Source of the DNA: Spirosoma sp.
GTDB lineage: Bacteria; Bacteroidota; Bacteroidia; Cytophagales; Spirosomataceae
Direction: 5' to 3'
Length of the DNA: 50,406 nt
Assembly: GCA_014377625.1 (NCBI GenBank)
Contig: JACMPG010000139.1
Coordinates: 1 to 50,406 of the forward strand
Shown here: piece by piece, positions 23,955-46,451 of the stretch
How positions within the stretch are numbered: position 1 is the stretch's first letter
Layout: each line of letters begins with the position of its first letter
The notes under the pieces: model-generated
Seen by the model: only the letters and a program-made list of their open reading frames with translations
Told to the model about the DNA's origin: nothing
Databases searched by the model: none
Position numbers and translations under genes: made by a program

Positions 23955-23957
23955 TTC

Positions 23958-27032: not shown

Positions 27033-27078
27033 GATTAGTGCAGGTCGGTGTGCCGATACGATCCAACCTGCATTAATC
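27033..27078 (-). terminator. Hairpin overlapping the end of the AIM24-family gene
   Basis: GATTAGTGCAGGT (27033-27045) and ACCTGCATTAATC (27066-27078) pair at 12 of 13 positions (one G-T) with a 20-base loop. The stop TAA (27073-27075) of the minus-strand gene lies in one arm. Confidence 0.55.
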
Positions 27079-27849
27079 CAGCAGGCCGCCCAGCTTACCC
27101 AGAACGGAGCCGCTTTCTTTATTGGCTTGTCCGCCGTTGGGCGATAGCCGCTGTACGAGCTTGGAGATCGGCATACTCTGAATCCAGACTTTACCGGAGC
27201 CGCTCAGGGTAGCCAGAAACAGCCCCTCGCCCCCAAACACCATACTTCTCAGACCACCCGCCCGCTGAATGTCGAAGTTGACGCTCGGCTCGAACCCCAC
27301 TACGCAGCCGGTATCTACGCGCAGGATTTCGTTGTTCAGCGTCCGTTCAATTACGACGCCCCCGGCGTGAATGAACGCCATACCGTCGCCCTGTACTTTT
27401 TCGAGAATGAAGCCCTCACCCCCGAAGAAGCCCGCGCCCAGCCGTTGATTGAACTGAATGCTGAGTTTGGTGCCGAGGGCCGCGCACAAAAAGGCGTCTT
27501 TCTGCACGATGAGCGTATTACCGTAAATGTTGGCTAAGTTGATGGGCATGACCGTGCCCGGATACGGAGCCGAAAACGTAACTTTTCGCTTACCCGACCC
27601 CCGGTTGGTGAAGTGCGTCATGAATAACGACTCGCCCATGATAACGCGCGAACCGGCCTGAAGCAGCTTGCCCAGAAATCCCTGGTCGGGCTGCGAGCCG
27701 TCGCCCATCTTGGTTTCGAACTGAATGCCGTCTTCCATGTACAGCATAGACCCGGCCTCGGCAATGACAGTTTCGTTAGGATCCAGTTCTATTTCAACGA
27801 TCTGAATGTCTTCGCCAATGATTTTGTAGTCGATTTCGTGAGAATACAT
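27073..27849 (-). CDS. TIGR00266 / AIM24-family protein
   Basis: 258 residues from the ATG at 27849 ([51 protein letters not shown]). The [40 protein letters not shown] and [13 protein letters not shown] segments are diagnostic of the family, a double-stranded beta-helix found from bacteria to mitochondria (AIM24). Its biochemical function is not established. No signal peptide, so probably cytosolic. The longer frame (27876) adds nine residues without family similarity. The last codons and stop lie in a hairpin arm. Confidence 0.88.
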
Positions 27850-27961
27850 AGTTGTGTTCCTGATTTTTGGGACCAAGATAGGGCCGAATCTCTTCGGAAA
27901 CAGACCGATTTAGTAAGCGGATTGCCGGGCGGGTAAACGGCCTAAACCCATGACAGTCTGT

Positions 27962-30900
27962 TCAGGGCCGGTCGAGTGCGTATTGCAGCACAAGGGCCAG
28001 AGCCTTGTCGTTGGGGGGGTGCATCAGCGTGGCGTGGTCGCCGGGTACGTCGTGCAGGTGTATCTCCGGCACGTAGTCTTTCCAGCCCAGATAGACCTGA
28101 TCTTCTACGAAATACAGCCGGGTCATGGCCCTGAACAGGTCTACAGCACCGGAATAAGGCTTTAGCCCGTAGCTGTAAAAGGCCTCATCGTGGGCTACCA
28201 TAACCGCGTCCATGTACGCCAGTTCGCCATCGGGTTTGGGGGCTTCGCGCAGACCAATAGCCTGTAAAAACTGCTGACATCGGTCGGCAAAGTAAGCCCG
28301 CTGATAATGCAGCGTATCGGCTGGATGCCGCAGTAATGACTGACCAATGAACAGCAGCTTGGGAAACTGCCGTTTGGTTCGCCACAAAAACCGGCTCAGT
28401 TTGGTTCGGTGCGGCACCAGTGCCCGCGCATCGGTGTCAAACATGGCCAGTAGCTTGATCTCTTTGCCCATCGCCGTGAGCTGCTGCGCCATTTCATAGG
28501 CCACGTACCCGCCGAACGAGTAGCCCGCCAGCGCGTAGGGACCAACGGGGTTATTCGTCAAAATCTCGTCGATATAGTGCGCTGCAATGGTCTCCATCCG
28601 GTTCAGGGGTTCTTCAGTTCCGTTGAGACCCTTCGCCTGGAGGCCGTAGATGGGTTGCTCGGGGTCCATGTATTTGACCAGACTGCTGAAATTGAGCAGG
28701 TTCAGGCCCGTTCCGTGAATGATGTAGATGGGTGGTTTGTTGCCTGCTGGTTTAATCGGTATCAGCGATTTCCAGGTCGAGGTGGGTGTGTCGGGCCGGA
28801 GCAGGTGTACCATGCTGCGGATGGTGGGAAACTCGAACAGCGTGGACAGTGGTAACCGCCGACCAGTTTCTTTTTCGAGCCGGGCCATTACCTGTACGGC
28901 CAGCAGCGAGTGACCACCCAACTCAAAGAAATCGTCGTCGGGCTGTACATTGTCAGTGTTAAAGGCGGTGTTCCAGACGCGGGTCAGCAGGGCCATCTCG
29001 CCGGATAATTCTGCTGTTTCTGCGTTAGCTATGGTGGTTGTCTTGCGTTGTCCGGGTTTAGGCAGGGCTTTTTTGTCGAGTTTGCCGTTGGCTGTTACGG
29101 GCAGGCTATCCAGCAATACCACGTTGTTGGGCAGCATGAACTCCGGCAGCACCAGTCGCAACTTCTCGCGCCAGGCCCGAATCAGCGCGGTTTCGTCCGC
29201 TACGTAGCGGTCCGGTACCACATAGGCTACCAGCCGCTGATCGCCGGGGGTATCTTCGCGGGCCATAACCACCGCGTTTTTTACGCCCTCCTGCTTCAGC
29301 AAATGATGTTCAATCTCGGCTACTTCAATCCGATGCCCGCGAATTTTAACCTGCTGGTCAATCCTGCCGAGGTAGTCGATACACCCGTCGGGCAGCTGCC
29401 GGCCCAGGTCGCCGGTGCGGTACAGCCGGGTTTGGGTGCCATCAGACAGGGTAAACGGGACGAATTTCTCGGCGGTCAGGTCGGGCTGATGCAGGTAGCC
29501 CCGCGCCAGCCCATCGCCCACAATGCCGATTTCGCCCGACTGCCCCGGTTCGAGTGGCTGGAGTTTTTCGTCGAGGATAAAAATCTGCGTGTTGTTGATG
29601 GCCCGGCCAATGGTAATGCGCTCGTCGGTAGGGAAAATGGGCGTACCGGTGGCGTAGATGGTCGTTTCGGTGGGGCCGTAGTAATTCCAGAGCGACCGGC
29701 ACGATCCCATCAGTTTCTGCGCGAGGTCCATCGGCAGGGCTTCGGCGCACGAGATAACGGTCAGATCGGGGTTGCCGCGCCAGCCCGCTTCCCAGAGCAT
29801 TCGCCAGGTGGCGGGGGTGGCCTGCATGAACGTAACGCCCGTGCTGGTCAGTAACTCGCTCAGGGCCTGTCCGTTCCGGCTCACCGAACTGTCGATAATG
29901 ACCAGTTCCGCACCCACCAGCAGTGGCAGGTAAATTTCGGTCGTAGCGAGGTCGAAGGTAACGGTGGCCAGCGTGGCAGTCTTATCAGTTGGGCCGAGAC
30001 CGGGTGTTTCCCGCAGGCTGTACAGAACATTGACCACACCCCGGTGGATGGTCTGCACGCCCTTGGGCCGACCTGTGGTACCGGAGGTGTAGAGGACGTA
30101 AAAGGCATCGTCGCCGGACGCGGCCCGGCCGGGGTCGGTATCGGCGAAGTCGCGGAGTTTGGGCCAGACGGTCTCCAGCACCACTTCCCGCAGTGATAGA
30201 CTCAGCCGGTTTTTGTGCGCTGCCGATACCAGTAACACCTGACAGCCCGCATCGGCCAGAATAAACTCAATACGGTCGGTGGGGTGCTGCGGATCAACGG
30301 GTACGTAGGCGGCACCGGTTTTCAGCACGGCCAGCATACTCACGATGAGTTCGGGCGAGCGGTCGGCCATCAGCCCAATGCGGTCGCCGGGTTGTACGCC
30401 CTGTTCCAGCAGCAGCCGCGCCAGTTGATTGGCCTGACTGTTCAGCGTTTCGTAGGTCAGCGTCCGGTCATTGTGGCGTAGGGCAATGTTGTTGGGAAAG
30501 GCCCGCGCCGTTTCGCTCAGCAAATCGTGCAGGGACCGGTCACGGGGGTACCCAACCCCTTCCGCAACGGGGGGGGCCCCCGAGGGGGGGGGGAAAACCC
30601 CCCCCGGCCCACCACCCCCCCCGTGGGGTGCGTCCCCCCGTTGCGGGAGGGGCTGGGGTGGGGTCTCTCGCGGTGGGGTAACGCCCAGTAACACATCCGG
30701 CTGCTCCACAACATCCCGTAATAACTGCTCGAACTGATGATGGAAACCCGTAATCGTCGCTGCCGTGAATAGTTGTGTGTTGTACGACCACTCCAGCGTC
30801 ATCTGCTGCTCGGAACCCATCGCATTGAGCGATAACTCAAAATTCTCGAACAGCCGGGCGTTATAGCGAAGCTGATACGTCAGGCTATGAAACGATACGC

Positions 30901-32050
30901 CGTTGTCTAAGCCCAGATCGACGTTAAAGACAACCGGCACGAGCGGAATCCGCGACGAATTCCGCGCTACCGGCAGCTTTTTGAGCAGACTCCCGAACGT
31001 TAGCCGTTGATGGTCCAGCGCGTCAAGCAGACCGGTTTTGCGCTGTTTCAGGTAGGTTACGAATGGTAAATCGGGCCGGGGTTGACTGTGCAGGGGCAGG
31101 AGATTCACGCAATGCCCTACCAGACCGGGCCGGTTAGTGGCCGACTGCCCGGCGGCTGGCAGACCCAGTACGATGTCGGTCTGTGCGGTAATGCGATGCA
31201 GCAGCACTTCGAACGAGGCCATGAGCGTGGTCACAAAGCTGCACCCGGCCCGAACGCCCATCTGCCGCACGGCCTGCACCAGCGCGGTATCGAGCGGAAA
31301 GTCGAGCCGGTGGCCCGCGTAGGTACGCCGGGCGGGGCGCGGAAAATCGGTGGGTAAGTCCAGAATCGGCACGATGTCGCGGAACTGGTCGAGCCAGAAC
31401 TGTTCGATGGTGCGGTAGTCGGGGCTGGTCAGAAACCGGCTCTCATCGGCGGCATACTGACTGAACGAAGGTGCGGGAGAAAGTGCGGGTTCCTGATCCT
31501 GGGAGAATGCCGAATACAACGCGCTCAAATCCTGCAACATGACGCCCAATGACCAGCCGTCGCAGATGATGTGATGCGCCGTGAGGGTGAAAAAATGGTC
31601 CGTATCGCTGAGTTTGAGCAAGCCCGCTTTGACCAGCGGCCCAAACGTCAGGTCGAATACGTGCTGCATGTCCTGCTGCACATAATCGGCTAAAAACCGC
31701 GCCTGTTCGGTGGTGTCGTGTTCGGTATAATCGGCAAAAGAAAGCGGAATCGTCTGGTCGCTGAATACAAATACCTGCTGTCCGTCGGCACTGAACGCCG
31801 AGCGTAAACTCTCGTGCCGCTCTGCCAATGCAGCCAACGCCCGCTCAAACGCCGGGCGGTTCAACAATCCGCTAAACCGCAGCGACACCGACTCGTTATA
31901 GGCCCGGCTGGCATCGTTGCCGCCCAACTGACTGGCAATCCAGACCTCCAGTTGGGGGGCGGTGGTGGGGGCTACGAATGCAATGGCGGGTCCGGCAAAC
32001 GGGTCGTAGTCAACGGCAGTGGATAGTGGTAACGTAGAGAGTTTGGTCAT
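27962..32050 (-). CDS. Non-ribosomal peptide synthetase, C-A-PCP-TE
   Basis: 1362-residue termination module. Condensation domain about 25-455 with the catalytic HHIICDG (159-165). Adenylation domain about 505-995 with YTSGTTGRPKG (654-664), NYYGPTETT (789-797), YRTGDLG (877-883), KIRGHRIE and the catalytic Lys near 990 (TANGKLDKK). Peptidyl carrier DDFFELGGHSLL, phosphopantetheine Ser near 1048. Thioesterase about 1100-1355 with nucleophile GYSFGG (1176-1181) and a C-terminal GDHATLM His. It joins an amino acid to the chain from the upstream megasynthase and releases the product. Residues about 463-500 are an odd Pro/Gly-rich insert encoded by a palindromic repeat. The gene follows the upstream one after three bases. 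The amino acid is not predicted with confidence. Confidence 0.93.
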   Translation of the reverse strand: MTKLSTLPLSTAVDYDPFAGPAIAFVAPTTAPQLEVWIASQLGGNDASRAYNESVSLRFSGLLNRPAFERALAALAERHESLRSAFSADGQQVFVFSDQTIPLSFADYTEHDTTEQARFLADYVQQDMQHVFDLTFGPLVKAGLLKLSDTDHFFTLTAHHIICDGWSLGVMLQDLSALYSAFSQDQEPALSPAPSFSQYAADESRFLTSPDYRTIEQFWLDQFRDIVPILDLPTDFPRPARRTYAGHRLDFPLDTALVQAVRQMGVRAGCSFVTTLMASFEVLLHRITAQTDIVLGLPAAGQSATNRPGLVGHCVNLLPLHSQPRPDLPFVTYLKQRKTGLLDALDHQRLTFGSLLKKLPVARNSSRIPLVPVVFNVDLGLDNGVSFHSLTYQLRYNARLFENFELSLNAMGSEQQMTLEWSYNTQLFTAATITGFHHQFEQLLRDVVEQPDVLLGVTPPRETPPQPLPQRGDAPHGGGGGPGGVFPPPSGAPPVAEGVGYPRDRSLHDLLSETARAFPNNIALRHNDRTLTYETLNSQANQLARLLLEQGVQPGDRIGLMADRSPELIVSMLAVLKTGAAYVPVDPQHPTDRIEFILADAGCQVLLVSAAHKNRLSLSLREVVLETVWPKLRDFADTDPGRAASGDDAFYVLYTSGTTGRPKGVQTIHRGVVNVLYSLRETPGLGPTDKTATLATVTFDLATTEIYLPLLVGAELVIIDSSVSRNGQALSELLTSTGVTFMQATPATWRMLWEAGWRGNPDLTVISCAEALPMDLAQKLMGSCRSLWNYYGPTETTIYATGTPIFPTDERITIGRAINNTQIFILDEKLQPLEPGQSGEIGIVGDGLARGYLHQPDLTAEKFVPFTLSDGTQTRLYRTGDLGRQLPDGCIDYLGRIDQQVKIRGHRIEVAEIEHHLLKQEGVKNAVVMAREDTPGDQRLVAYVVPDRYVADETALIRAWREKLRLVLPEFMLPNNVVLLDSLPVTANGKLDKKALPKPGQRKTTTIANAETAELSGEMALLTRVWNTAFNTDNVQPDDDFFELGGHSLLAVQVMARLEKETGRRLPLSTLFEFPTIRSMVHLLRPDTPTSTWKSLIPIKPAGNKPPIYIIHGTGLNLLNFSSLVKYMDPEQPIYGLQAKGLNGTEEPLNRMETIAAHYIDEILTNNPVGPYALAGYSFGGYVAYEMAQQLTAMGKEIKLLAMFDTDARALVPHRTKLSRFLWRTKRQFPKLLFIGQSLLRHPADTLHYQRAYFADRCQQFLQAIGLREAPKPDGELAYMDAVMVAHDEAFYSYGLKPYSGAVDLFRAMTRLYFVEDQVYLGWKDYVPEIHLHDVPGDHATLMHPPNDKALALVLQYALDRP
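30551..30657. repeat. GC-rich palindromic repeat inserted in frame inside the NRPS gene
   Basis: Arms CCCAACCCCTTCCGCAACGG.. (30551-30574) and the inverse (30634-30657) match at 22 of 24 positions; the centre contains runs of G and C (about G10, AAAA, C9). It reads in frame as a linker of Pro, Gly and Ala between the condensation and adenylation domains. Confidence 0.75.
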
Positions 32051-32053
32051 GCG

Positions 32054-35000
32054 TCAATCGGTTAACATCACCTGCACGTACTTACCCGGCTGGTCAGGGT
32101 GGGGCAGAAACCAGGCTGGATTCCCCAGCGGGTCGCGGCCCAGGCGGGCGTTGGGTACGGGTGGCGTTTTAACAATCAGCGAAGGTGTCGACAGATTCGG
32201 TACGGTCGGCGCGGCAGACCCACCCAGAAACCCAGCCTGAATCAGTTCATCGGCACTTTCGGTAAAACATCGAATCATCGTGTCAATTTCGGGATCGGTG
32301 TGCGCTTCGGTCATAAAGCACGGAAAACCGTCCCAAATATGGATATTTTTTTCGCGCATCAATGTAAACAGTAACTCGCCATATTGCACGTCTTCGCGCA
32401 TTTTTATCTTCCAGAGTGAGCCGAACTGCGCTACGTAGAGCGGTAACTGCCGCTGTTTGGCCACGGCATTCAGGGCATCGGCCAGTCGCTGCGCTTTTTG
32501 CGTAATGCGCTGTTGCAGAGCCGGTCCGCAGGCTTTCATGTACGTCAGCGAGACTTTGGCCGCAGCGAGGGCCAGCGGATGCCGCACAAACGTACCGGCA
32601 AAATACGTAACGCCCACCTCCGGCACCGAGTCGTCGCCATACTGCCAGAAACCGCCGTCGAGCGCGTCCATGAACGAACGTTTGCCCGCAATGACGCCGA
32701 TGGGAATGCCGCCCCCCACTACTTTGCCGTAGGTAGCCAGATCGGCCCGGATGCCAAACAGGGCCTGCACCCCCCCCGGATGCGTACGGAAACCGGTAAT
32801 GACCTCATCGAAAACCAGGACCGTACCGGACTGTGCCGTGATGCTGCGGATTTCTTTCAGGAAATCGACCGGCACAAATTCGGGTCGGCGGCTTTGCACA
32901 GGTTCTACCAACACGGCGGCCAGTTCGTGCGCCCGTTCGCGAATGATGCGCAGGCTTTCGTCAGTGCCGTAATCCAGAATGAGCATGTTCGCCACCGCTT
33001 CGGGCATGATGCCGGGAGCCGCCGGAAACGACTTCAGTTTTTTAGTGCCGCGCACCAGTACTTCGTCATTGATGCCATGATACGAACCCGTAAACGCCAC
33101 AATCAGCGAGCGGCCCGTTACCGTGCGGGCTACGCGCATGGCACCCAGTACGGCCTCGGATCCGGTGCTGCACAGGGCGGCCCGGTCAGAGCCAGTCAGT
33201 TCGCAGATGAGCTGGGTTACTTCGCCCGCCAGTTCGTGTTGCGGCCCTACTTCAAAGCCATTCTCGATTTGATCGTGCAGGACGGTTTTGATGAGGTCGG
33301 GTTGATAGCCCAATAGGTTGGAGCCGAATCCGTTGAGCGCGTCAATGTACTCGTTGCCGTCAATATCCCACAGCCGACTGCCTTTGGAGCGATTTACCAC
33401 CAGCGGATAAACAATCTCTTTGGTTAGAGGCCGGAAGCCCGTCACCACGCGTGGGTCGGCCATCCGGTCGCGGTGCTGCTGCGCGTACGCTTTGCTTTTG
33501 GCCGTTTTCTGGTTGTATCGTTGAATTAAGCTGGTTAAGAAAACCTGTTGTGCGGGTGTGAGTTCGAGAGCCTGCCGGTCAATCCGGGCAGTGGCTCCGA
33601 ACGGTTTTTTGAGCTCAGCCACTTCCTCCGCCGATACGTCGGCCAGCGGATTGCTCAGCGAAACGGGTGCGGTGCCGTTGGGGTAGTGACCATTGGATTT
33701 GGTTGTACCGTTGGTGCTATGCTGCCCGTTTTCGTACAACGCCGGCGTTCCGTGGCCCTGCTGTGGGGATACCGGGGCCGTTGCGGCTGGCGTTCCCTGT
33801 AACAGAGCGAGTTGTTTCGTGAGCAGTGCAAGTTGCTGGGCAATCAGACCGAGGGCCGTATCATTGGGGGCGATGCCCGTTGATACGGCGGGCATAACGT
33901 TCTGCAAGGGTGGCATGGGAATCGAAGCAACCGGCGCGACAGGTACGGGGTCTGGGGGGAGGGCCTGGTTGAGGTAGGCCACCAGCCGGGCGGGCGAGTC
34001 GAGGTCGCCGGTGAGTTGCCGGAAGGTGAGCGGTACGTTAAATTCTTTCTTCAGGTTCAGGGCCACCTGAGTCAGCAACAGCGAATCAAAACCGATTTCG
34101 AGGAAACTCGTTTCAGACGGAACGCCAAGGACCTCCAGGCCGGAGGCATCTTCGAGTAGTGTACCTACGCGGTGTAGCAGCGTTTCGGTACGGGATGGTT
34201 GAGCAGCCATAATTTGTGTGTATGGGTCAGGTTGGGGCGCTGAATCAGGTTGAACCGCCGTGACGGACGCGCTGGTGTAAGACAGTGTCGGTACGAGTAG
34301 CGGTGGATCAATCCAGCAGCGTTTTTTGTCGAAAGCGTAGGTAGGCAGTAACACTTTTTGGCGCGACTTTTTGGCGTAAAATGCGTTCCAGTCAACAGAA
34401 AAGCCCATTTGCCACAGATTGCCGAGCGTGGTCAGGAGTTGCCGATAGGCAGCTGCATCGTCGGGTTGTTGGGTCATGCCGCCCAGTACGGGAATCGTTT
34501 TATCCGTCAGTGTTTGCCGGGCAAAGGTCGAGGTCGCGTTGCCGGGTCCTATATCGAGCAGGACTGGATTGTCGAGCGATTGTATTGTGATAACGGCCTC
34601 GGCAAAGCGGACGGTTTCGCGCAGATGGCGGGTCCAGTAGTGCGGGTCGGTGGCGTTGGCGTCGGTCAGGTAGGTACCGGTTCGGGTCGAGACAATCGGT
34701 TTCTGAGGACGGTGCAGCGTAACAGCCGCGACGGTTTTGGCAAAGTCATCCAGAACCGGCTCCATCATGGCCGAATGAAACGCATGACTCGTAGCCAAAA
34801 GCTTGTGGGCAATACCGCGTTCGTCAAGCATTTTGCCGAAGTCAGCAATGGCATCGTCGGCACCGGCCACCACGCTTAGTTTTGGGCTGTTGACAGCCGC
34901 CAACGACAGCGTTTTGGGCAACAGTGGTGCTAATTCTGACTCGGCCAGCCGCACCGACAGCATACTGCCGTGCGGCAACCCGCTCATCAACCGGCCCCGC

Positions 35001-38000
35001 GTGGCAATCAGCGTCAGCGCATCGGATAGTGAGAACACCCCCGCCAGATGAGCCGCCACGAACTCGCCGATGCTGTGGCCGCACAAAACGGTGGGCGCAA
35101 TTCCCCAACTCATCCAGAGTCTGGCCAGCGCGTATTCCGTCACGAACAGGGCGGGTTGGGTAACCCGCGTATCGTTCAGTTTCGCTTTGGCAACAGCGTC
35201 AGGCGTTTCGGACGTATCCACGCCGGGATACATCACCAGTCGGATGTCTTCATCGAGCGCATTCAGCAATACCTCTGCGCACTCGTCAACTGCCTGCCGG
35301 AATACGGGTTCGCATTCGTAAAATGCCCGGCCCATGTTCAGAAACTGCGCTCCCTGACCGGGAAATATGAACACAACTTCATCCGGGATACGCTCAATCG
35401 GTTTTGCTTCGGCTTTTTCATCCCGCAACGCGGTAACGGCTTCGGCACCGTCGGCGGCCACAACAAACCGCCGATGGGTATAATCGGGACGGGTGGTGGC
35501 CAGCGTATAGCCCACGTCGGCAAGGCCGGGCGCGTCGGGCTGACCCAGTGCATCGGCTAATTTGTGTCCGTAGTGAGTCAGACTAACTGGTTTCTTTGCC
35601 GACCAGGTAAGCAATTGAGTGGGGCGACTTATTGCTGAATCAATGACTTTGTGGGTTATGGCAGGTCCCTCTTCCAGCACTACGTGAACGTTGGTGCCGC
35701 CCACGCCGAATGAACTTACGCCCGCCCGCCGGACCGCATCGGATTGCCAGTTGGACAGGGTATCGTTCACGAAAAATGGACTGTTGGCGAAGTCGATAGT
35801 GGGGTTGGGCGCGGTGAAATGCAGCGATGCAGGCAGTTGCCGGTGGTGCATGGCCAGCACAGTTTTGATGAGTCCTGCCACACCCGATGCCGCCGTGAGG
35901 TGGCCCATATTGCTCTTGACCGAGCCAATGGCGCACGACTGCCGACGTACTGTGTCGCCAAAGGCCATCGTCAGCCCGTCGATTTCGATGGGATCGCCAA
36001 TGGGCGTGGCGGTGCCGTGGGCTTCTACGTAGCTGATGCTGTCGGGCGAGACCTGTGCGTCGGTGAGGGCCGCGCGGATGGCCCCAGCCTGACCCATTGC
36101 ACTTGGTGCCGTGAAGCCACCTTTGCCGTTTCCATCGTTGTTCACGCCCACGCCTTTGACAACGCCCCAGATGGCATCGCCGTCGCGCTGTGCGTTTGTG
36201 AGAGGTTTAAGCAGCACGATACCGGCTCCGTCGCTGAAAACCGTACCCTGCGCATCGGCACTGAACGAACGGCAGTGTCCGTCGCGGCTGAGCATACCTC
36301 CTTCCTGATACAGATAGCCGCTGTTGATGGGCGTGGTCAGGCTGACGCCCCCCGCCAGAGCCACGTCGCACTGACCGCTGCGCAAACTTTGTACGGCTTG
36401 TGCAATGGCTAACAGCGAGGTAGAACAGGCCGAAAAAACGCTTACGGCGGGGCCAGTCAGGTTCAACTGGTAAGCTGTGCGGGTGGCGATGTAATCCTTC
36501 TCGTTCAGGGTCATCGCCTGAAACGGGCCAACGGCATCTACTGCCTGCGGATTGGTCAGGACGTTGTTCTGGTAATACGAGTTGTTGTGGCAACCCGCAA
36601 ATACGCCCACCCGCCCGGCATAGCGTTGGGAACTGTAGCCCGTTTGTTCAAGCGTTTCGGCGGCTATCTCCAGAAAGATTCGCTGCTGCGGGTCCATGAC
36701 CTGCGCTACGGTAGGCGGCAACCCAAAATAATGCGCGTCGAACTGGTCGGCGTCGTTCAGAATACCCCGCGCCTTTACGTAGTTCGGGTCATGGCGCAGG
36801 TTGTCGGGAATAGTAACGTCGAGTTCGGCATCCGTAAAAAAGCGCGTCGTTTCACGACCTTCTACCAGCACCTGCCAGAAATCGACGATGGTTGGCGCAC
36901 CGGGGAAGCGTCCGTTCAGCCCGATGATGGCGATGTCCTGACCATCGGTAGTGCCATTGTTCAGGTTAGCTGCACGTTCTGGTTTCGCTCCGGCAATATT
37001 CTCCACTAAACTCGCTACCGTTGGGAACTGGTATAGCTTGGTAACGGGAACCGGCATGCCGGTTTCGGCCAGTAATGCTGCCGTGCGCTGGGCGAGGAGG
37101 GAGTTGCCGCCCATCTCGAAGAAGTTATCATCCAGCCCGATTTTGTCGATTTGCAATGCCTCGCTCCAGATGCTGGCGATGCTGCGCTCGGTATCGGTGC
37201 GGGGTTTCCGATAGGTGGTGTCGAGGTCGGGGCGGGTACGTTCTGGAGTGGGCAGGCGTTTTCGATCGATTTTTCCGCTGCTGGTTTGCGGGAAACTATC
37301 CAGCCAAACGAATGCCGATGGCATCATGTAATCGGGTAACGTACTGGCCAGCGTCTGTCGTACCGACGCCCGGTCGGTCAGGGTATCGTCGGCAATCAGA
37401 TACGCCACCACCTGCTTTTCTCCCACACCCTCGCGGGCCACGACCGCTGCCTGCCGGACGCCCGGTGTCTGGTTCAGCACTACTTCAATTTCGCCCAGTT
37501 CGACCCGATGGCCGCGAATCTTGACCTGATCGTCGCGTCGCCCCAGAAACTCGATGGTGCCATCGGGCAAAAAACGGCCCAGGTCGCCGGTGCGGTAGGC
37601 ACGTTCGGTTTGTCCGTCTGATAGGGTCAGCGTGATGAACTTTTCGGCAGTCAGGTCGGGCTGATTCAGGTAGCCATCGGCCAGACAGGCTCCAGTCAGG
37701 CAGAGTTCGCCGGTTTCGCCGGGGGGCAGGATGGTCAGGGACTCATCCACAAACCAGACCTGTACATGGCTGATGGGCTGGCCAATACCGGGCAGGGGGG
37801 GCCAGGTAGCGGGGTTGCCGGTGAGGGTCAGCTGCGTGACTACGTGGCACTCGGTGGGGCCATATTGATTGAACAGAACGCAGTTGGGCAGATTCGCGAA
37901 GAATTCGGCCACCTGTGGGGTAATCTTCAACTGCTCGCCCGCTGTCATCACCTCGCGCAGACTGGTCGGAAACAAACCTGCCCGGCCAGCGGCTTCGCTT

Positions 38001-38761
38001 AGGTATTGCAGGGCAACAAACGGCAGAAACAACCGCTCGATACGCTGTTCGTCAATCAGCCCGAGCAGCGCGTTCAGGTCCAGCCGGGTGGCTTCGTCGA
38101 CCAGAACAAGGGTGCCGCCGGTGCCGAGGGTTGCAAAAATCTCCTGAAACGATACGTCGAAACTCAGTGGAGCCAGTTGCAGCGTTCGCGTGTTCAGACC
38201 AGCTATCGACTGTCCGGCCTGCCACTGTAACAGGTTCAGCAACGGCGCGTGACCCATACAAACGCCCTTTGGGGTACCCGTCGAACCTGATGTGTACAGT
38301 ATGTATGCTAAACTGCCGGATGGCTGCGGTGGTGCAGCGCCTGCCGTAGAAATAAGCTGATTGTCAATGACCTGTACACCAAGTTCGGCGAATAAAGCCG
38401 CATAAGGGCCGGTAGCCACTACGGTACGAAGTCCCGAATTGTCGATAATTTCCCAGAGCCGCTGGGTAGGGTAGGCAGGGTCGAGGGGGAGGTAGGCACG
38501 GCCACTTTTCAGGATGCCCAGTACGCCCACAATCATGTTCAACCCCCGCGTGGTGCTAATGCCGATATACGGATTGGGCGTATCGGCCCGGTTTAACGCA
38601 TCCGCTAGGGCGTCGGCCTGTTGGTTGAGTTGCTGGTAGGTCAGTGACTCGCTACCGAAAATGACTGCTACGGCATCGGGCTGCGCACGGGCTAAGTCCC
38701 AAACCAACCGATGAACAGACATCGGCCCAAAGGCATCATTATCGTCGGCGGAGGGTATCAT
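32054..38761 (-). CDS. Hybrid NRPS-PKS megasynthase, A-PCP-KS-AT-ACP-aminotransferase
   Basis: About 2235 residues from the ATG at 38761 (the frame extends to a TTG at 38773). Domains: adenylation about 10-510 (YTSGSTGTPKG, QYGPTECH, YRTGDLG, SSGKIDRK); carrier DDNFFEMGGNSLL (Ser about 554); ketosynthase about 608-1035 with Cys779 in FSACSTSLL and His in EAHGTATPIGDP and SNMGHLTAASG; acyltransferase with GHSIGE (Ser1230) and HAFH, the malonyl-type motif; acyl carrier EIGFDSLL (Ser about 1560); an Ala/Pro/Gln linker; and a class III PLP aminotransferase about 1725-2165 with FDEVITGFR and Lys2013 in TYGKVVGGGIPIG. It starts without a condensation domain, hence loads the first amino acid. No ketoreductase. 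The aminotransferase resembles those of mycosubtilin and microcystin synthases, which aminate a beta-ketoacyl chain. Confidence 0.92.
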   Translation of the reverse strand: MIPSADDNDAFGPMSVHRLVWDLARAQPDAVAVIFGSESLTYQQLNQQADALADALNRADTPNPYIGISTTRGLNMIVGVLGILKSGRAYLPLDPAYPTQRLWEIIDNSGLRTVVATGPYAALFAELGVQVIDNQLISTAGAAPPQPSGSLAYILYTSGSTGTPKGVCMGHAPLLNLLQWQAGQSIAGLNTRTLQLAPLSFDVSFQEIFATLGTGGTLVLVDEATRLDLNALLGLIDEQRIERLFLPFVALQYLSEAAGRAGLFPTSLREVMTAGEQLKITPQVAEFFANLPNCVLFNQYGPTECHVVTQLTLTGNPATWPPLPGIGQPISHVQVWFVDESLTILPPGETGELCLTGACLADGYLNQPDLTAEKFITLTLSDGQTERAYRTGDLGRFLPDGTIEFLGRRDDQVKIRGHRVELGEIEVVLNQTPGVRQAAVVAREGVGEKQVVAYLIADDTLTDRASVRQTLASTLPDYMMPSAFVWLDSFPQTSSGKIDRKRLPTPERTRPDLDTTYRKPRTDTERSIASIWSEALQIDKIGLDDNFFEMGGNSLLAQRTAALLAETGMPVPVTKLYQFPTVASLVENIAGAKPERAANLNNGTTDGQDIAIIGLNGRFPGAPTIVDFWQVLVEGRETTRFFTDAELDVTIPDNLRHDPNYVKARGILNDADQFDAHYFGLPPTVAQVMDPQQRIFLEIAAETLEQTGYSSQRYAGRVGVFAGCHNNSYYQNNVLTNPQAVDAVGPFQAMTLNEKDYIATRTAYQLNLTGPAVSVFSACSTSLLAIAQAVQSLRSGQCDVALAGGVSLTTPINSGYLYQEGGMLSRDGHCRSFSADAQGTVFSDGAGIVLLKPLTNAQRDGDAIWGVVKGVGVNNDGNGKGGFTAPSAMGQAGAIRAALTDAQVSPDSISYVEAHGTATPIGDPIEIDGLTMAFGDTVRRQSCAIGSVKSNMGHLTAASGVAGLIKTVLAMHHRQLPASLHFTAPNPTIDFANSPFFVNDTLSNWQSDAVRRAGVSSFGVGGTNVHVVLEEGPAITHKVIDSAISRPTQLLTWSAKKPVSLTHYGHKLADALGQPDAPGLADVGYTLATTRPDYTHRRFVVAADGAEAVTALRDEKAEAKPIERIPDEVVFIFPGQGAQFLNMGRAFYECEPVFRQAVDECAEVLLNALDEDIRLVMYPGVDTSETPDAVAKAKLNDTRVTQPALFVTEYALARLWMSWGIAPTVLCGHSIGEFVAAHLAGVFSLSDALTLIATRGRLMSGLPHGSMLSVRLAESELAPLLPKTLSLAAVNSPKLSVVAGADDAIADFGKMLDERGIAHKLLATSHAFHSAMMEPVLDDFAKTVAAVTLHRPQKPIVSTRTGTYLTDANATDPHYWTRHLRETVRFAEAVITIQSLDNPVLLDIGPGNATSTFARQTLTDKTIPVLGGMTQQPDDAAAYRQLLTTLGNLWQMGFSVDWNAFYAKKSRQKVLLPTYAFDKKRCWIDPPLLVPTLSYTSASVTAVQPDSAPQPDPYTQIMAAQPSRTETLLHRVGTLLEDASGLEVLGVPSETSFLEIGFDSLLLTQVALNLKKEFNVPLTFRQLTGDLDSPARLVAYLNQALPPDPVPVAPVASIPMPPLQNVMPAVSTGIAPNDTALGLIAQQLALLTKQLALLQGTPAATAPVSPQQGHGTPALYENGQHSTNGTTKSNGHYPNGTAPVSLSNPLADVSAEEVAELKKPFGATARIDRQALELTPAQQVFLTSLIQRYNQKTAKSKAYAQQHRDRMADPRVVTGFRPLTKEIVYPLVVNRSKGSRLWDIDGNEYIDALNGFGSNLLGYQPDLIKTVLHDQIENGFEVGPQHELAGEVTQLICELTGSDRAALCSTGSEAVLGAMRVARTVTGRSLIVAFTGSYHGINDEVLVRGTKKLKSFPAAPGIMPEAVANMLILDYGTDESLRIIRERAHELAAVLVEPVQSRRPEFVPVDFLKEIRSITAQSGTVLVFDEVITGFRTHPGGVQALFGIRADLATYGKVVGGGIPIGVIAGKRSFMDALDGGFWQYGDDSVPEVGVTYFAGTFVRHPLALAAAKVSLTYMKACGPALQQRITQKAQRLADALNAVAKQRQLPLYVAQFGSLWKIKMREDVQYGELLFTLMREKNIHIWDGFPCFMTEAHTDPEIDTMIRCFTESADELIQAGFLGGSAAPTVPNLSTPSLIVKTPPVPNARLGRDPLGNPAWFLPHPDQPGKYVQVMLTD

Positions 38762-38769
38762 AGGAGGGG

Positions 38770-40959
38770 TCAAATGATGTTACGCTGGGTCTGTAAGGAT
38801 TGCGCGGTGGCTAAGGGAGAATTTTTGGTTTCGTTACGGCCCGGCGTATCCATATAGTCACCCCCTACGTGGTTCAGCACCAGTAGGGTAGGCTGGTTGG
38901 TGACGCGGGAATACAGGCTCAGAAGCTGCTTTTCGGCGCGGGTCCAGGCCGAGTTAGCGTCGATAATCAGCAGCGATAGGGCCGACCGTTTCAGCAGAAA
39001 TACCGGAATCTGGTGGTCAATAAGTGACGGCAGTTCGAGCAGAATCCGGTCGAACTTCGTGGCGTCGAACCCGTACTGATGGTCGATGAGGTACTCAATG
39101 CCGGTCACGTTCATGAAATCGGGCCGAATTGTGTACGGATAGTACGTTATACCGTTTCGCCGTTCGGGCTGCTCATGGCCTTTTTCGCGCGGGAAGCAAT
39201 ACGCTACCTGCTGATCGGCTTCGGCGTAGAGTTTGGCCAGGCCCTCGGCCACCCACGTTTTACCCTGCCGGGGGCGGATGCCAAACAGCGTAATGACGGG
39301 GGGGTAGGGCATACTGGTAGCCTGCGTAATTTCGATGTGAATGGCGTTGAACAGCCGCTCAAACATGCTGCGGCTGGCCCAGGTAACTTTCGAGAATACA
39401 TTGGGCTTTTTCACCGTTGGGAACACCGCCGTTACGGGCATACCCACCATTTGTTCGGCCTGTTCGGGCGAGTGAATTTTCTTATCGAACACAAACCGAA
39501 GGGCCGTCAGCATCAGGGCCAGAAACAGGCCCACGCCAAAGCCAATGATAATCAACTGCGTTCGTTTGGCAGCTTCGGGCAGAAGCGGGAAGCTGGGTGC
39601 GTCCAGCACTTCGAGCGTACCGCCAATTTTGACGTCCTGTCGGCGTGTCTGCGAGGCATCTACGTTCTGGAGCAGGTCGAGGTATTCGCGTTCGGCAATG
39701 GTCATGTCGCGCTGCAACTGCCGCAACTGCGTACCCAGTGGGCTGTATTCGTTTAATTTTGCCTGTTGCTCGCCAATGCGTTTTTTGTAGGTTTCCAAGC
39801 GGGCCGTGGCTTCCTCATACTCCAGGATTTTGTTCATCCGGTCGTTGGCCATTGTCTGGGCGGGCAGGGCGTCGGGTGCGCTGGCGGCAGCGTCGTATTT
39901 CTGGGCACTGGTTTTCAGCTCTTCGCTGGCATTGGCAACGGTAGCCTGGAGCCGGGCAATGGCTGAGCGGGGCTGGTTGTAGGCGCGGGCGTTGGCCAGC
40001 TGCGTTTCGGCCTCGGCCAGTTTCTTCTGTTTGCTACTCAGGTCGCTATTGGCCGTGCGGATGCTGCCCTGCTGCCCCATGCGTTTGTCCAGCATGTCGA
40101 TAGACGCTTTAGCGGCATCCCGGCGCATCTGTTCCTGACTGTACTCGCGGCTGAGGGCCTCCTGCGAAGCCGCTACGTTCTTCGATTCGGTATCAAAGTC
40201 CAGTACGTTGTGCCGCACGTTGAAGGCTTTCAGGCTGGCTTCGGCCTGATCGAGTTTCTGTTTGGCAGCCGCCAGTTTTCCTTCGTAATAGCCTACAACC
40301 GAGTTGGTTTCGGATGTTTTAAAAAGCGAATACCGCTGGTTCAGTACACTGATGGCGTACCGTAGTGTGTTTTGGGCCACTGCCGGATCATCGGCGGTGT
40401 ACTCCATCAGCAGAATGTCATTGGTAGCTTTGCGGGCGGTCCCTTTCAGAGTTTCGGTAAGGTGACGCACCGAATAATACGTTCCGGAGGTGAGCAGCAG
40501 GTCTTTAACGGAATTGTTTGTCTGTGACTTGGACAGGCTGTCCAGCGCGGCCCGCAGCGTCTCTATATCACCTTCGATGGGGAGCTGATAGCGCAGACTG
40601 ATAGGAATTTCGGTCTGTAACTTTTTGAAACCTACCGCCCCCAGCACCAGACTGTCGGGTTGCTGTAGCCGCAGATGGTCGGCCAATAGATTAACGCCCA
40701 CCTTTAGCATGGTTTCTTTGGAATAGAGCGTAGTGAGCAGGTTATCGAACGCACTGGCCGACCGGTCGCCGAAGGCGGCCTGCTTGTCGGAGGTGAGCGA
40801 ATAGCCCGACGCCAGTCCGGTGTACAGCGTCGATTCAGACTTGAATACCTTTGGCTCGTTACGGGTAGTAAACCAGGCTGTTGCTGCGGTTAGAATCGGC
40901 AGCAGAATCAGCAGGGGCAGGTGTTGCCGTAACAGCCGGAGAAATGCGTTGATGTTCAT
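38770..40959 (-). CDS. Wzc/GumC-like chain-length determinant with BY-kinase-type domain
   Basis: 729 residues. Helix LLILLPILTAATAWFTT at the N-terminus, long periplasmic coiled coil (about 200-440), second helix LIIIGFGVGLFLALMLTALRF near 465-490, then a cytosolic P-loop domain with Walker A FGIRPRQGKTWV, spaced as in Wzc. The second Walker (A') Asp is not seen (VAYCFPREKG), the B motif reads ILLELPS, and the C-terminal tyrosine cluster is absent (..LQTQRNII). It is therefore a co-polymerase-type inner-membrane protein with a degenerate kinase domain. It sits between the TolC-like and megasynthase genes; 4-base gap upstream, 8-base gap downstream to the chosen start. Confidence 0.8.
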   Translation of the reverse strand: MNINAFLRLLRQHLPLLILLPILTAATAWFTTRNEPKVFKSESTLYTGLASGYSLTSDKQAAFGDRSASAFDNLLTTLYSKETMLKVGVNLLADHLRLQQPDSLVLGAVGFKKLQTEIPISLRYQLPIEGDIETLRAALDSLSKSQTNNSVKDLLLTSGTYYSVRHLTETLKGTARKATNDILLMEYTADDPAVAQNTLRYAISVLNQRYSLFKTSETNSVVGYYEGKLAAAKQKLDQAEASLKAFNVRHNVLDFDTESKNVAASQEALSREYSQEQMRRDAAKASIDMLDKRMGQQGSIRTANSDLSSKQKKLAEAETQLANARAYNQPRSAIARLQATVANASEELKTSAQKYDAAASAPDALPAQTMANDRMNKILEYEEATARLETYKKRIGEQQAKLNEYSPLGTQLRQLQRDMTIAEREYLDLLQNVDASQTRRQDVKIGGTLEVLDAPSFPLLPEAAKRTQLIIIGFGVGLFLALMLTALRFVFDKKIHSPEQAEQMVGMPVTAVFPTVKKPNVFSKVTWASRSMFERLFNAIHIEITQATSMPYPPVITLFGIRPRQGKTWVAEGLAKLYAEADQQVAYCFPREKGHEQPERRNGITYYPYTIRPDFMNVTGIEYLIDHQYGFDATKFDRILLELPSLIDHQIPVFLLKRSALSLLIIDANSAWTRAEKQLLSLYSRVTNQPTLLVLNHVGGDYMDTPGRNETKNSPLATAQSLQTQRNII

Positions 40960-40963
40960 GCCG

Positions 40964-41797
40964 TCAGTACCGTTTCAGTTGTTGGATAGAGACGCCCATC
41001 AGCGACTCGAAGAGGTGTACATTACGCAAAAAGGCACCTTTACTTTCTTCCACGACCGACCGGGCCTGTACGTAGGCGGTCGTGTTGCCAGCCAGTTCAC
41101 GGGCCGTAATTTTTCCTTTCTGTATTTCCGATTCGGCGATGCGCATGGCGGCCAGGGTAGCCTGCTCGTCGAGTAGCCGCGCCTTCAGAATTTGCTGGCT
41201 GGTAATCATGTCCTGATAAATGATGATGAGCTGTTGCCGAAGCTGAAGCGCGATGATGTCTTTCTGCACCAGAGCCGCCTTGTGGTTGGCGTCGGCCTGC
41301 CGGATAAGGTGCTTCCGTCCAAACACGTCGAACAGCGACACGCGCACATCAACACCCACCCGGTAGCCATTGAGCAGTTGATTGTTACGCGCATCCGGTT
41401 GGATATTAGGCGAGGTCGTACCCCCTGGAGCTATAGTACCCGTCTGAAAGTTGGTGATGTTAAGAGACTGATTGCCGCCTGAGTAGTTGGCAAAGCCGCT
41501 TATGTTCTGTAGAATCTGTGAGCGTGTTATGCTGCGGGCTTCGTCGAGCGAGTTGGCCACGGCGTCCTGATACCGGAGCGAGGGTGAATAGGCCGTCGCA
41601 ATTTTCACCATGTCATCGAACGGCATCAATTGTACGGCAATATCCTGATTGGGGTCCAGAAACAGCGTATCGTTGGCCAGACCCGACGAGGCACCAAATG
41701 ATACCAGCCCACGCCCGCCCCGGTTCTGGGCAAACGCTACAGAACTGACGAGGCAGCCCACGAGAATCAAAAAACAGAATCGATAAACAGCAGCCAT
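40964..41797 (-). CDS. Short TolC-family outer-membrane efflux-like protein
   Basis: 277 residues from the ATG at 41797 (signal peptide MAAVYRFCFLILVGCLVSSVAFAQ; an alternative ATG at 41824 adds nine residues in front). The rest is a helical TolC-type body: MVKIATAYSPSLRYQDAVANSLDEARSITRSQILQNISGFANYSGG, strands around GYRVGVDVRVSLFDVFGRKH, and a long coiled coil QADANHKAALVQKDIIALQLRQQLIIIYQDMITSQQIL..EIQKGKITARELAGNTTAYVQARSVVEESKGAF. TolC proteins are usually 400-480 residues with two such repeats; this one looks like a single repeat. It could be a homo-oligomeric export channel or a truncated partner. Function in export of the product is inferred from position. Confidence 0.75.
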   Translation of the reverse strand: MAAVYRFCFLILVGCLVSSVAFAQNRGGRGLVSFGASSGLANDTLFLDPNQDIAVQLMPFDDMVKIATAYSPSLRYQDAVANSLDEARSITRSQILQNISGFANYSGGNQSLNITNFQTGTIAPGGTTSPNIQPDARNNQLLNGYRVGVDVRVSLFDVFGRKHLIRQADANHKAALVQKDIIALQLRQQLIIIYQDMITSQQILKARLLDEQATLAAMRIAESEIQKGKITARELAGNTTAYVQARSVVEESKGAFLRNVHLFESLMGVSIQQLKRY

Positions 41798-41906
41798 TCG
41801 ATGCTCACAAACGTGACAAGTCATTCTAAACTATATTAGCCGATGTATTCACGTCTTTAAGAAAAAGGCCTTGATACATCGAAAATAAATCTAAGTTAAT
41901 TTTTAT

Positions 41907-41930
41907 CAATGTTCGGAACATTGAAATTTA
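41907..41930 (-). promoter_or_regulatory. Dyad with near-promoter element upstream of the TolC-like gene
   Basis: Perfect dyad CAATGTTC-G-GAACATTG (41907-41923). Immediately upstream on the minus strand is TAAATTTC (41930-41923), one base from TAnnTTTG. It is about 110 bases before the TolC-like gene and suits a start point covered by an operator. No upstream TTTG was found. Confidence 0.4.
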
Positions 41931-42046
41931 CTGCTTGGTGGTTCGGTGATCCAGGCTGCGCTAGAAAACCACCTTATTTTATAGGAATAGGTGCGTTGTT
42001 CTGACGACCTTCTGGAAGTTCTGTCACTCCGCAAAGACAGTATAGT

Positions 42047-43285
42047 TTAGCGCACTGCTGAACTGGAATGGGGCGTGTGCAGAAACCGGTTGAACGCCTT
42101 ACGCATATTCAGCACTGCCCGCCCAAAACTCAGCATCAGACCCGGAATGAGCATCAGCTCGCGCATGGTTACCCGCCTGCGGAGGTAGGCGGGTACTGAT
42201 ATAACTAAGGTCAGACACAAAGTCAGCAGCAGACCCAGCGGTAATTCCCACAGCAGCGCATTGCCAGTGAAAAAAGCCAGCAGCGTAGTTAATCCCAGCA
42301 CACCGAGCAGTAACACACGCGGCAACACTACCGCCCGCAGCATACCGAGGGCGGTCTGGAACCGGCCCTGTCGCAGTTCGCTCAGGCCAACGGGGTAGTA
42401 CGTCTGCAAAAACTGCACCTGCGCGGCAATCCAGCGGGTGCGCTGATTCTCGAACACAGCCCGCAACGCCACTTTCTCGTCGTAGATGTAGGCGTTTTCG
42501 AGGTAACCGATGGTGTAGCCGTCGCGCACGATTTTCATCTCCAGTTCCTTGTCATAACCGCCCATCGTTTTCAAATCCAGCATGGCGGTTCGCATCAGCG
42601 TAAAATCAAACGCCAAGCCCGACCCAATCACCGGCGACGACAGGCCGAGGGCGCGGCTACCTCTGCGAAAAATATGGTTGTTTATTTCTTCGCTGATGGC
42701 GTCCAGCAGGGCCACGCTGGTATTGGTATTTTTAGCAACCCGGTGCCCCTGTATGACCCGCCAGCCCCGGTTGAAGGCGTCATTGATGCGTTCCAGAAAA
42801 TCGGTAGCCATAATGTTGTCGGCATCGGATACCACCAGAATGTCGTATTCATTTTTCTGAAATTTCGCCAGAGCCGCCCCAATAGCGTTGGAAACGGTAG
42901 ATATGGGAAACGACACCTCGATGACGCGGACGGGTAGCTGGGCCAGCCGGGCCAGCGTGGCGGGCTGCATGGAATCGGCAATGACGATTAACTCGAAAGC
43001 GGTGGCTGGGTACTGCTGCCGGAGATTGGCCTGCACCGATTCAACAATAACGGCATCTTCTTTGTAGGCGGGTATCAGAACGCCAATCCGGTGCAGGCGG
43101 CCCGGCGTGGACTCGCCCGGCGCGGGTGCGGCTGGTGCCGGATGGGGTGAGCGATTGTCGTCGGCCCGGCCCAGTTTACCCGCTACGGCAAACAGCAGGA
43201 GATACAGAACGGTAAGTCCCAGAAAACTTATAAAAAGTAAATACAGTACAAAGAGGAGTTGCATCAGTCCGGTAAAAAGAGACAT
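42047..43285 (-). CDS. Family 2 glycosyltransferase, membrane-bound (processive type)
   Basis: About 412 residues. N-terminal membrane helix (LLFVLYLLFISFLGLTVLYLLLF), then a GT-A domain: IGVLIPAYKEDAVIVESV, the VSDADNIMATDFLE motif (D-x-D), GGYDKELEMKIVRDGYTIGYLENAYIYDE, and ENQRTRWIAAQVQFLQ, a Q-R-x-R-W-like product-binding motif as in cellulose and hyaluronan synthases. C-terminal membrane helices follow (about 310-370). It probably makes or extends a cell-surface polysaccharide. A 222-base gap with its own dyad separates it from the TolC-like gene, so it may be a separate transcript on the same strand. The start is ATG 43285 rather than TTG 43288. Confidence 0.85.
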   Translation of the reverse strand: MSLFTGLMQLLFVLYLLFISFLGLTVLYLLLFAVAGKLGRADDNRSPHPAPAAPAPGESTPGRLHRIGVLIPAYKEDAVIVESVQANLRQQYPATAFELIVIADSMQPATLARLAQLPVRVIEVSFPISTVSNAIGAALAKFQKNEYDILVVSDADNIMATDFLERINDAFNRGWRVIQGHRVAKNTNTSVALLDAISEEINNHIFRRGSRALGLSSPVIGSGLAFDFTLMRTAMLDLKTMGGYDKELEMKIVRDGYTIGYLENAYIYDEKVALRAVFENQRTRWIAAQVQFLQTYYPVGLSELRQGRFQTALGMLRAVVLPRVLLLGVLGLTTLLAFFTGNALLWELPLGLLLTLCLTLVISVPAYLRRRVTMRELMLIPGLMLSFGRAVLNMRKAFNRFLHTPHSSSAVR

Positions 43286-43288
43286 CAA

Positions 43289-45890: not shown

Positions 45891-46451
45891 TTACTCTAGG
45901 TTGACTCCGGATGCCAGTTTTATATACAGCTTTCTGGCCCGGTCGCGGGCGCGTTTGAGTCGCATCTTGGCCGCACTCGGGGTGAGCTGTTGCTGGTGGG
46001 CAATGTCCTTGATTTCCACGCCCTGTTCGTACTTGGTCCGCAGCAAAACCTGTTGCTCTACCGGGAGCCGGTTCAGTAACTGATCGAGTACGGCAAGCGC
46101 ACGGTCTGATATGGGTTCCGACTCATCGGTGCCGCCCAAAAACGTAACGGTGTATTGTTCGTACTGGAGTCGGAGGTGTTGCTGTTTGCGGAGTTGGTCG
46201 ATACAGTGGTTGTGGGTTACCCGGTGCAGCCAGGTACTAAACCGGGCCTCGCCCTTATAGGTCTCCAGGCGACGCGCCACCCGAATAAAAACGTCCTGGG
46301 TCAAATCCTCGGCTTCGTCAGGGTCTTTGCACATAATCAGGCATTGTTGGTAGACCAGATACCGATAGCGGTCGTAGAGTTGCTCAAAGGAGCGTTCATT
46401 ACGGGTGGTCAGGTAGTGGGCAATCAAGTCCTGATCGGTAAAGTGGGTCAT
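45891..46451 (-). CDS. ECF-type RNA polymerase sigma factor
   Basis: 186 residues from the ATG at 46451 (MTHFTDQDLIAHYLTTRNERSFEQLYDRYRYLVYQQC). Region 2 is intact, with DEAEDLTQDVFIRVARRLETYKGEARFSTWLHRVTHN binding the -10 element. Region 4 is LLNRLPVEQQVLLRTKYEQGVEIKDIAHQQQLTPSAAKMRLKRARDRA, the helix-turn-helix for the upstream element. No anti-sigma gene sits next to it, so its control cannot be inferred. The upstream frame to 46490 adds 13 residues without similarity. Confidence 0.9.
   Translation of the reverse strand: MTHFTDQDLIAHYLTTRNERSFEQLYDRYRYLVYQQCLIMCKDPDEAEDLTQDVFIRVARRLETYKGEARFSTWLHRVTHNHCIDQLRKQQHLRLQYEQYTVTFLGGTDESEPISDRALAVLDQLLNRLPVEQQVLLRTKYEQGVEIKDIAHQQQLTPSAAKMRLKRARDRARKLYIKLASGVNLE

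Follow-up and report, generated by a model that had tools for sequence, protein, structure and literature searches.

A nonribosomal peptide-polyketide synthase pair linked to a probable Wzx/Wzy-type polysaccharide locus in Spirosoma and related Bacteroidota

The window analysed here, the 50,406 nt contig JACMPG010000139.1 (C367) from a Spirosoma sp. draft genome (5.3 Mb, 85% complete, 378 contigs), carries an operon in which genes for a GT2 membrane glycosyltransferase (GT), a half-size TolC-like outer-membrane channel protein (OEP) and a Wzc-like polysaccharide co-polymerase are followed by two genes for a hybrid nonribosomal peptide synthetase-polyketide synthase (NRPS-PKS), synthase 1 and synthase 2. 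The coupling of these NRPS-PKS genes to a polysaccharide locus is well supported. Usually, NRPS-PKS genes are taken to mark natural-product clusters, and polysaccharide genes envelope clusters. A single conserved operon combines the two cluster types here in three or more genera, and a synthase of this kind also lies beside Wzx/Wzy loci in another order. The arrangement suggests that the slime carries, or is made along with, a custom nonribosomal building block. The reading tentatively favoured, on a judgement that stops just short of an even balance, is that an exopolysaccharide locus of the Wzx/Wzy type has taken in a dedicated NRPS-PKS, the product of which would serve the repeat unit of the polysaccharide as a building block or as a substituent.

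Conserved gene order of the operon

All five genes lie on the reverse strand (Table 1), and open reading frame (ORF) coordinates, Pfam (24 window proteins scanned) and profile and model matches agree with the domains assigned to them in a first-pass annotation of the window. The close packing of the last four genes described there is also correct, with gaps of 4 bp between the OEP and Wzc genes, 3 bp between the two synthases and, between Wzc and synthase 1, -4 bp if the TTG start of synthase 1 is used or 8 bp from the ATG at residue 5. The GT2 and OEP genes are 222 bp apart. By ORF coordinates, no transporter gene lies between the packed genes, the rest of the window being only partly scanned for exporters.

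The Wzc protein was used to search 150 genomes of the family. Some relative is present in 107, and an orthologue (≥59% identity) in 23, that of the window included. In all 23, a TolC-like gene precedes wzc and a synthetase gene follows it directly, so that the trio, whose recurrence had been proposed as a check, is found in conserved order. The gene following wzc is synthase 1 in 18/23 (cut by a contig end in one and in two pieces in another) and synthase 2 in the five Fibrella-group genomes, and a GT2 gene is located just upstream of OEP-Wzc in 18 of the 23. In the Fibrella group a synthase 1 gene is inverted 5-12 kb upstream (G069 and G080), is more distant but shares the contig (G008) or is on a different contig (G056 and G040). 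The same arrangement was seen at 21/21 loci found in a named collection, which represent Spirosoma, Rudanella, Fibrella, Fibrivirga, a Cytophagales metagenome-assembled genome and a record titled Flavobacterium sp. SUN052; these are largely the same genomes as the 23 and not an independent set. Chance adjacency is rejected by the conserved gene order. Of the 23 genomes that carry the Wzc orthologue, 22 have a synthase, versus 19 of the other 127 in the family, and in the single one of the 23 with no synthase match (G067) the locus is cut by a contig end.

The SUN052 record (L099) has a Spirosoma-type locus with a Wzc that is 62% identical, and either misnaming or transfer is possible. In S. 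telluris (L114) the operon is in several pieces with broken frames, and in G131 (L063/L064) Wzc and synthase 1 are each in two pieces; decay or sequencing errors may be responsible in both.

Nine regions around more distant OEP-Wzc pairs (44-51%) were read, eight of 40 kb and one of 20 kb, and none contains an NRPS gene. They have several neighbouring gene families in common with the NRPS-linked loci. Because the distant pairs stand without an NRPS, the OEP-Wzc pair looks like an older polysaccharide module and the synthase like a later gain. The concern that the pair might belong mainly with other loci is partly borne out in the wider family; the close orthologues are all NRPS-linked.

Beyond the synthases, many relatives carry, for the most part on the other strand, genes for Wzx (PF13440), CHU_C, an Sfp-type phosphopantetheinyl transferase (PPTase), GTs and a Wzy-like protein (PF04932, matched by the protein of G079, the nearest relative). 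Called by similarity to labelled proteins, Wzx is within 14 kb of synthase 2 in 16 of 22 readable loci, a PPTase in 15/22 and a Wzy-like protein in 12/22, and a PPTase-like gene is within 14 kb in 18 of the 30 read loci outside the Wzc set. The first-pass annotation had linked the Wzc/TolC pair to polysaccharide genes and had seen no PPTase. The first of these can be extended, as Wzx, Wzy-like and GT genes of a fuller pathway belong to the locus too, and the second is true of the window but not of the locus. In the window genome, Wzx, CHU_C, PPTase, GT4 and other genes are on a different contig, C218, which ends before the expected Wzy-like position, and an AIM24-family gene located 85 bp downstream of synthase 2 occupies the position held by Wzx in G079, where both halves of the locus are joined. 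A split locus or an assembly fault therefore accounts for the lack of a PPTase beside the operon. There are three ACPS-family matches in the window genome, none on the window contig.

Synthases, co-polymerase and channel protein

Pfam predicts the domain order adenylation (A), peptidyl carrier protein (PCP), ketosynthase (KS), acyltransferase (AT), acyl carrier protein (ACP) and class III aminotransferase (AMT) for synthase 1; synthase 2 is composed of condensation (C), A, PCP and thioesterase (TE) domains. All of the catalytic motifs looked for in both synthases are present and intact, namely GGNSL (PCP), ACSTS (KS), GHSIG and HAFH (AT), FDSLL (ACP) and KVVGGG (AMT) in synthase 1, and HHIICDG (C), GGHSL (PCP) and GYSFG (TE) in synthase 2. 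HAFH is the motif of malonyl-specific AT domains. With KS, AT, ACP and class III AMT all present and their active-site residues retained, synthase 1 has the composition of a hybrid NRPS-PKS with a beta-aminotransferase.

The A-domain codes in the window are DVQVMAQVVK (A1) and DLTAICYIYK (A2). Prediction of the product from these codes was dropped, as the GrsA-based positions were placed by eye; A1 matches a proline code at 7/10 positions and the A2 codes of several relatives resemble glycine codes, with no firm call made. The A2 of several relatives also carries a methyltransferase-like insert, judged by eye and not by a profile, suggesting that the second residue may be N-methylated. Since the synthase 1 codes shift among close relatives that share the operon (L059/L061/L069 and others; DVQVMAQVVK, DAQVIGVVVK and DVQVTGVIVK), the identity of the first amino acid may have changed more than once or twice among them.

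The only Pfam match of the Wzc-like protein is GNVR, at 22 bits and below the cut-off. A profile of its orthologues matches the co-polymerases PslE (7.5e-11) and Wzc (5.5e-8) in the PDB, and the AlphaFold model (predicted local distance difference test, pLDDT, 73.5) matches Wzc by Foldseek with an E value of 2.1e-18. The model has the layout of a class PCP-2a co-polymerase, with a periplasmic coiled-coil domain and a cytosolic P-loop domain, and model helices 14-31 and 465-490 are predicted to be the two transmembrane helices. GxxPxxGK(S/T) is kept in the Wzc-like proteins and reads GxxPxxGKT in that of the window. Unlike the active Wzc of the bacterial tyrosine (BY) kinase type, the C-terminal Tyr cluster is absent (0-2 Tyr in the last 40 residues of 31/31 sequences), the Walker A' stretch, which resembles VAYCYPR, has no Asp, and Walker B reads LELP. 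The NRPS-free relatives that were read have the same motifs, so the missing Tyr cluster and A' Asp are no mark of the NRPS link, and loss of the kinase on account of the NRPS is rejected. Membership of the exosortase A (XrtA) system is also rejected, the TIGR03007 score being 75 bits against a cut-off of 278.85.

The TolC-like protein includes one PF02321 stretch (60 bits, 3.4e-16) in its 286 aa. Its AlphaFold model (pLDDT 72) has helices at residues 81-116, 156-235 and 241-276, and the first-ranked Foldseek matches are TolC, OprM and OprN, which are weak (best E 0.025, none <0.001). A sequence profile found no match in the PDB. The protein differs from TolC in having one OEP repeat per chain instead of two and in its partner, which is Wzc instead of an efflux pump, and there is no Wza nearby. 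A search of 22 genomes placed no Wza-family gene <27 kb from Wzc on its contig; the nearest, in G131, is 27.4 kb away between gene edges, or 29.6 kb when measured from the far end. The Wzc contig has no Wza-family gene in 9/22, and all 22 genomes have one elsewhere. As none is near Wzc, the TolC-like protein would be the likeliest outer-membrane exit. The remaining operon gene product, GT2, includes QRTRW, a QxxRW-type motif, and has no PDB sequence relative at E 0.001.

Distribution, proposed pathway and alternatives

When 395 genomes of the phylum were searched with an ACP-AMT query, 18 gave a match with an E value of 1e-70 or below. In a second family, which belongs to another order, the synthase occurs in 42/201 genomes at 43 loci (E 1e-150). 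Of these loci, 24 are ≤30 kb from a PF13440 flippase, where ∼1.2 would be expected from flippase density; the nominal Poisson probability of 5e-23 ignores relatedness and is not to be taken at face value. Linkage was seen in 6/7 genera (11/14, 7/8, 3/14, 1/3, 1/1, 1/1 and 0/2 loci). The home family has 53 synthase loci, 17 of which are within the same distance of such a flippase, 16 being the Spirosoma/Rudanella/Fibrella locus and one that of G017. Some second-family loci also carry Wzy-like, Wzc or short OEP genes, a related GT2 gene and GT4 genes, and in G248 and G695 the synthase pair, Wzx, Wzy-like, Wzc, short OEP and GT genes are found together; the ten loci of this family fetched for reading had been chosen for a nearby flippase. 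Condensation domains were searched for (E 1e-30) in 29 of the 42 second-family synthase genomes, and in 19/29 there is one genome-wide, beside the synthase. The same 29 genomes provide a thin control for other NRPS, in which condensation-domain loci away from the synthase (G640, G645, G662 and G725) are on contigs with no listed PF13440 flippase, although those of G662 are at extreme contig ends or starts and the contigs may be short.

A tree of 48 synthase 1 proteins, 33 of them labelled polysaccharide-linked, was built with a quick method and includes ten rows chosen for linkage. The linkage label needs 6 changes on this tree, at least 5 of them forced by well-supported branches. A single origin of linkage, by one founder event, is therefore not supported. 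The synthase pair, in many cases accompanied by a PPTase gene, forms a separate unit, and polysaccharide loci are a frequent but not a constant setting for it.

Cupin_8-like proteins, two confirmed by Pfam, occur near the synthase pair in 7/52 loci from both families. Those adjoining the AMT synthase in two orders (L043, 7199-8092; L152, 12328-13188) are a candidate tailoring hydroxylase. In a distant member of the phylum (G401, contig C88, L154), genes for a P-loop (AAA_31) protein, a bacterial sugar transferase and a DegT aminotransferase precede an AMT-type NRPS-PKS.

The pathway proposed here takes as its starting point the domains and their intact motifs, the Wzc/OEP linkage and the linkage in relatives to Wzx, Wzy-like, GT and PPTase genes, all read directly; the steps assigned to A, PCP, KS, AT, ACP, AMT and TE follow established domain knowledge. 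With the carriers activated by the Sfp-type PPTase from the polysaccharide block, A1-PCP of synthase 1 would load an amino acid, KS-AT-ACP would extend the chain by one malonyl unit, and the AMT would transaminate the beta-ketone to a beta-amine, giving a predicted beta,gamma-diamino acyl chain. Synthase 2 would add the second amino acid and the TE would release the product, which could then become part of a repeat unit, either as building block or as substituent; the unit would be assembled by GTs, flipped by Wzx and polymerised by Wzy with the Wzc-like co-polymerase. The polysaccharide would leave via the half-size TolC-like channel standing in for Wza. That all of these parts act in one pathway, and that the product is covalently attached to the polysaccharide, are our inferences, the second being the least certain step. 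Export through, or attachment to, a polysaccharide, as envisaged in the first-pass annotation, is plausible. With somewhat more reserve, the loci may define a class of Bacteroidota polysaccharides with repeat units that contain a nonribosomal beta-amino (vicinal diamine) dipeptide; a dedicated NRPS-PKS encoded in the operon would make the dipeptide, and export would be by Wzc and half-TolC.

Several observations weigh against incorporation of the product into the polysaccharide. In the window, no Wzx, Wzy or PPTase gene adjoins the operon. There is no PF13440 flippase within 30 kb at 36/53 synthase loci of the home family and 19/43 of the second, counts that include cases hidden by short contigs or contig ends, by split blocks and by other flippase families, which PF13440 at E 1e-15 misses. 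The second synthase copy of G004 has what looks by eye like a flippase gene, with GTs, upstream, yet was scored as unlinked. Five of the eight genomes with an NRPS-free OEP-Wzc region that was read (G058, G100, G108, G048 and G031) keep a synthase elsewhere, and hence the synthase can work apart from this Wzc. The three Fibrella synthase 1 copies included in the tree group with the free-standing copies of G071 and G108 and not with those of Spirosoma, and so may represent a separate copy instead of a relocated gene. The A1 and A2 codes also differ among the polysaccharide-linked loci, and because of this variation the products of the synthase family are probably several related compounds. No acyltransferase that might move the product to a sugar stood out among the scanned neighbours, no profile search aimed at such an enzyme having been made. 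Finally, what the TE releases could just be a free small molecule.

A strong rival is a free product, synthesised in concert with the slime. The pair would then make a released beta-amino dipeptide, acting as a signal, chelator or antibiotic, that shares no more than its regulation with the slime and leaves by another route; this is possible if doubtful. Synthase 2 ends with an ordinary TE, in an architecture like that of 4zxh, and the pair occurs with a PPTase-like gene but no PF13440 flippase within 30 kb in G408, G525, G362, G510, G031, G063 and G048, all of which would be consistent with a free molecule. However, flippase linkage in the second family is far above the level set by flippase density, synthase 2 stays beside Wzc in Fibrella, and the packed operon genes have no gene, hence no transporter, between them. 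Hitch-hiking, in which the pair landed once after wzc and was kept by linkage and operon expression with no functional coupling, is unlikely. It is true that synthase 1 of Spirosoma and Rudanella falls into one clade (16 tree rows), so that most of the 23 cases may share one event. However, the label changes on the tree and the occurrence in two orders indicate repeated origin or retention of the linkage to Wzx/Wzy loci, Fibrella has synthase 2 but not synthase 1 adjacent to wzc, and the G248 locus leans toward a second, independent insertion beside an unrelated Wzc. It is very unlikely that Wzc and OEP form an unusual trans-envelope exporter of the peptide-polyketide itself, with no role for a polysaccharide. 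The window operon, which consists of GT2, OEP, Wzc and the two synthases only, would fit such an exporter, but Wzc proteins are co-polymerases and not pumps, the orthologous loci include Wzx, Wzy-like and several GT genes, and shared neighbouring gene families tie in the NRPS-free OEP-Wzc regions. If, as favoured here, the product decorates the polysaccharide, this would explain why a single small NRPS line is kept in many genomes, and amino-rich, peptide-like groups would be added to the known chemistry of bacterial slime.

Flanking genes and comparison with known systems

The divergent S41 peptidase gene that flanks the operon recurs, among the loci examined, in G079 and S. sordidisoli. Elsewhere in the window (Table 1), the Eco57I-type methylase and the T5orf172/ResIII protein of a restriction-modification-like gene set match separate parts of one type IIG profile, resembling a split IIG system. 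Tyrosine-breakdown genes are clustered, and a 942-aa protein is encoded beside the ECF-type sigma factor gene. The window genome (G000) also has a second, truncated NRPS (A-T-C-C) on contig C347 (L155, 2-7115), which is followed by transporter-like and thioesterase-like genes, judged by eye, and its own ACPS-family PPTase gene.

Table 1. Features of the window.
Feature	Coordinates	Strand	Details
Tyrosine-breakdown gene cluster	9793-14757	-	FAA hydrolase, glyoxalase/HPPD-like, homogentisate dioxygenase-like
Restriction-modification-like genes	21746-26016	+	the three genes that follow
MTase_II-like	21746-22480	+	
Eco57I-type methylase	22458-23954	+	
T5orf172 + ResIII protein	24064-26016	+	
AIM24-family gene	27073..27876	-	outside conserved locus
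Synthase 2, C-A-PCP-TE	27962..32050	-	1362 aa; Pfam, motifs
Synthase 1, A-PCP-KS-AT(malonyl type)-ACP-AMT	32054..38773	-	2239 aa; Pfam, motifs
Wzc-like polysaccharide co-polymerase	38770..40959	-	729 aa; profile and model matches
Half-size TolC-like outer-membrane channel protein (OEP)	40964..41824	-	286 aa; Pfam PF02321
GT2 membrane glycosyltransferase	42047..43288	-	413 aa, TTG start; QRTRW motif; Pfam Glyco_tranf_2_3
S41 C-terminal processing peptidase	43570..45255	+	divergent flank; not part of system
ECF-type sigma factor	45891..46490		outside operon
942-aa protein	46966-49794	-	Ig-like domains; type IX secretion tail below cut-off

The components are of known kinds, and their conserved combination appears new to the literature searched, in which no title or opening of an abstract pointed to NRPS genes inside a Bacteroidota Wzx/Wzy locus, most subscription journals being outside its coverage. 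A paper on a Burkholderia genome contains the terms nonribosomal peptide, Wzy, Wzc and flippase (PMC3102044). A phylum-wide survey of Bacteroidetes gene clusters exists, the main text of which has no word beginning Spirosoma, saccharide or aminotransferase and uses polysaccharide once (PMC9248904).

The O-polysaccharide of Flavobacterium psychrophilum offers a precedent for the use of the product. In the portion of the source consulted, the prediction is that an acyl group is built on an ACP dedicated to it and then placed on an amino sugar, so that its R-group genes, like the Spirosoma operon, combine carrier-protein chemistry with a Bacteroidota Wzx/Wzy locus and a predicted acyl substituent (PMC6519341). 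It is by analogy with such carrier-made acyl groups that use as a polysaccharide building block or substituent is thought likeliest. As far as that portion describes it, the F. psychrophilum set is type II fatty-acid-like (ACP, two KS and a ketoreductase, KR) with a PglD-like transferase (PMC6519341), whereas the Spirosoma locus has a modular NRPS-PKS with AMT and TE, and a transferase was not identified.

The synthases themselves have relatives of known structure. Synthase 2 residues 31-1355 align with 4zxh (ABBFA_003403), also a C-A-PCP-TE protein, at 1.8e-157. The AMT of synthase 1 is nearest in the PDB to that of MycA (6kfu, 1.7e-129; 6kfm, 1.9e-123), which represents the mycosubtilin/iturin-type AMT hybrids, and in both proteins the AMT is placed after a KS-AT-ACP module. 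MycA starts with a fatty-acid-activating domain. Synthase 1 differs in opening with an amino-acid-type A-PCP, in being followed by a single further module, and in the location of its genes within a polysaccharide operon.

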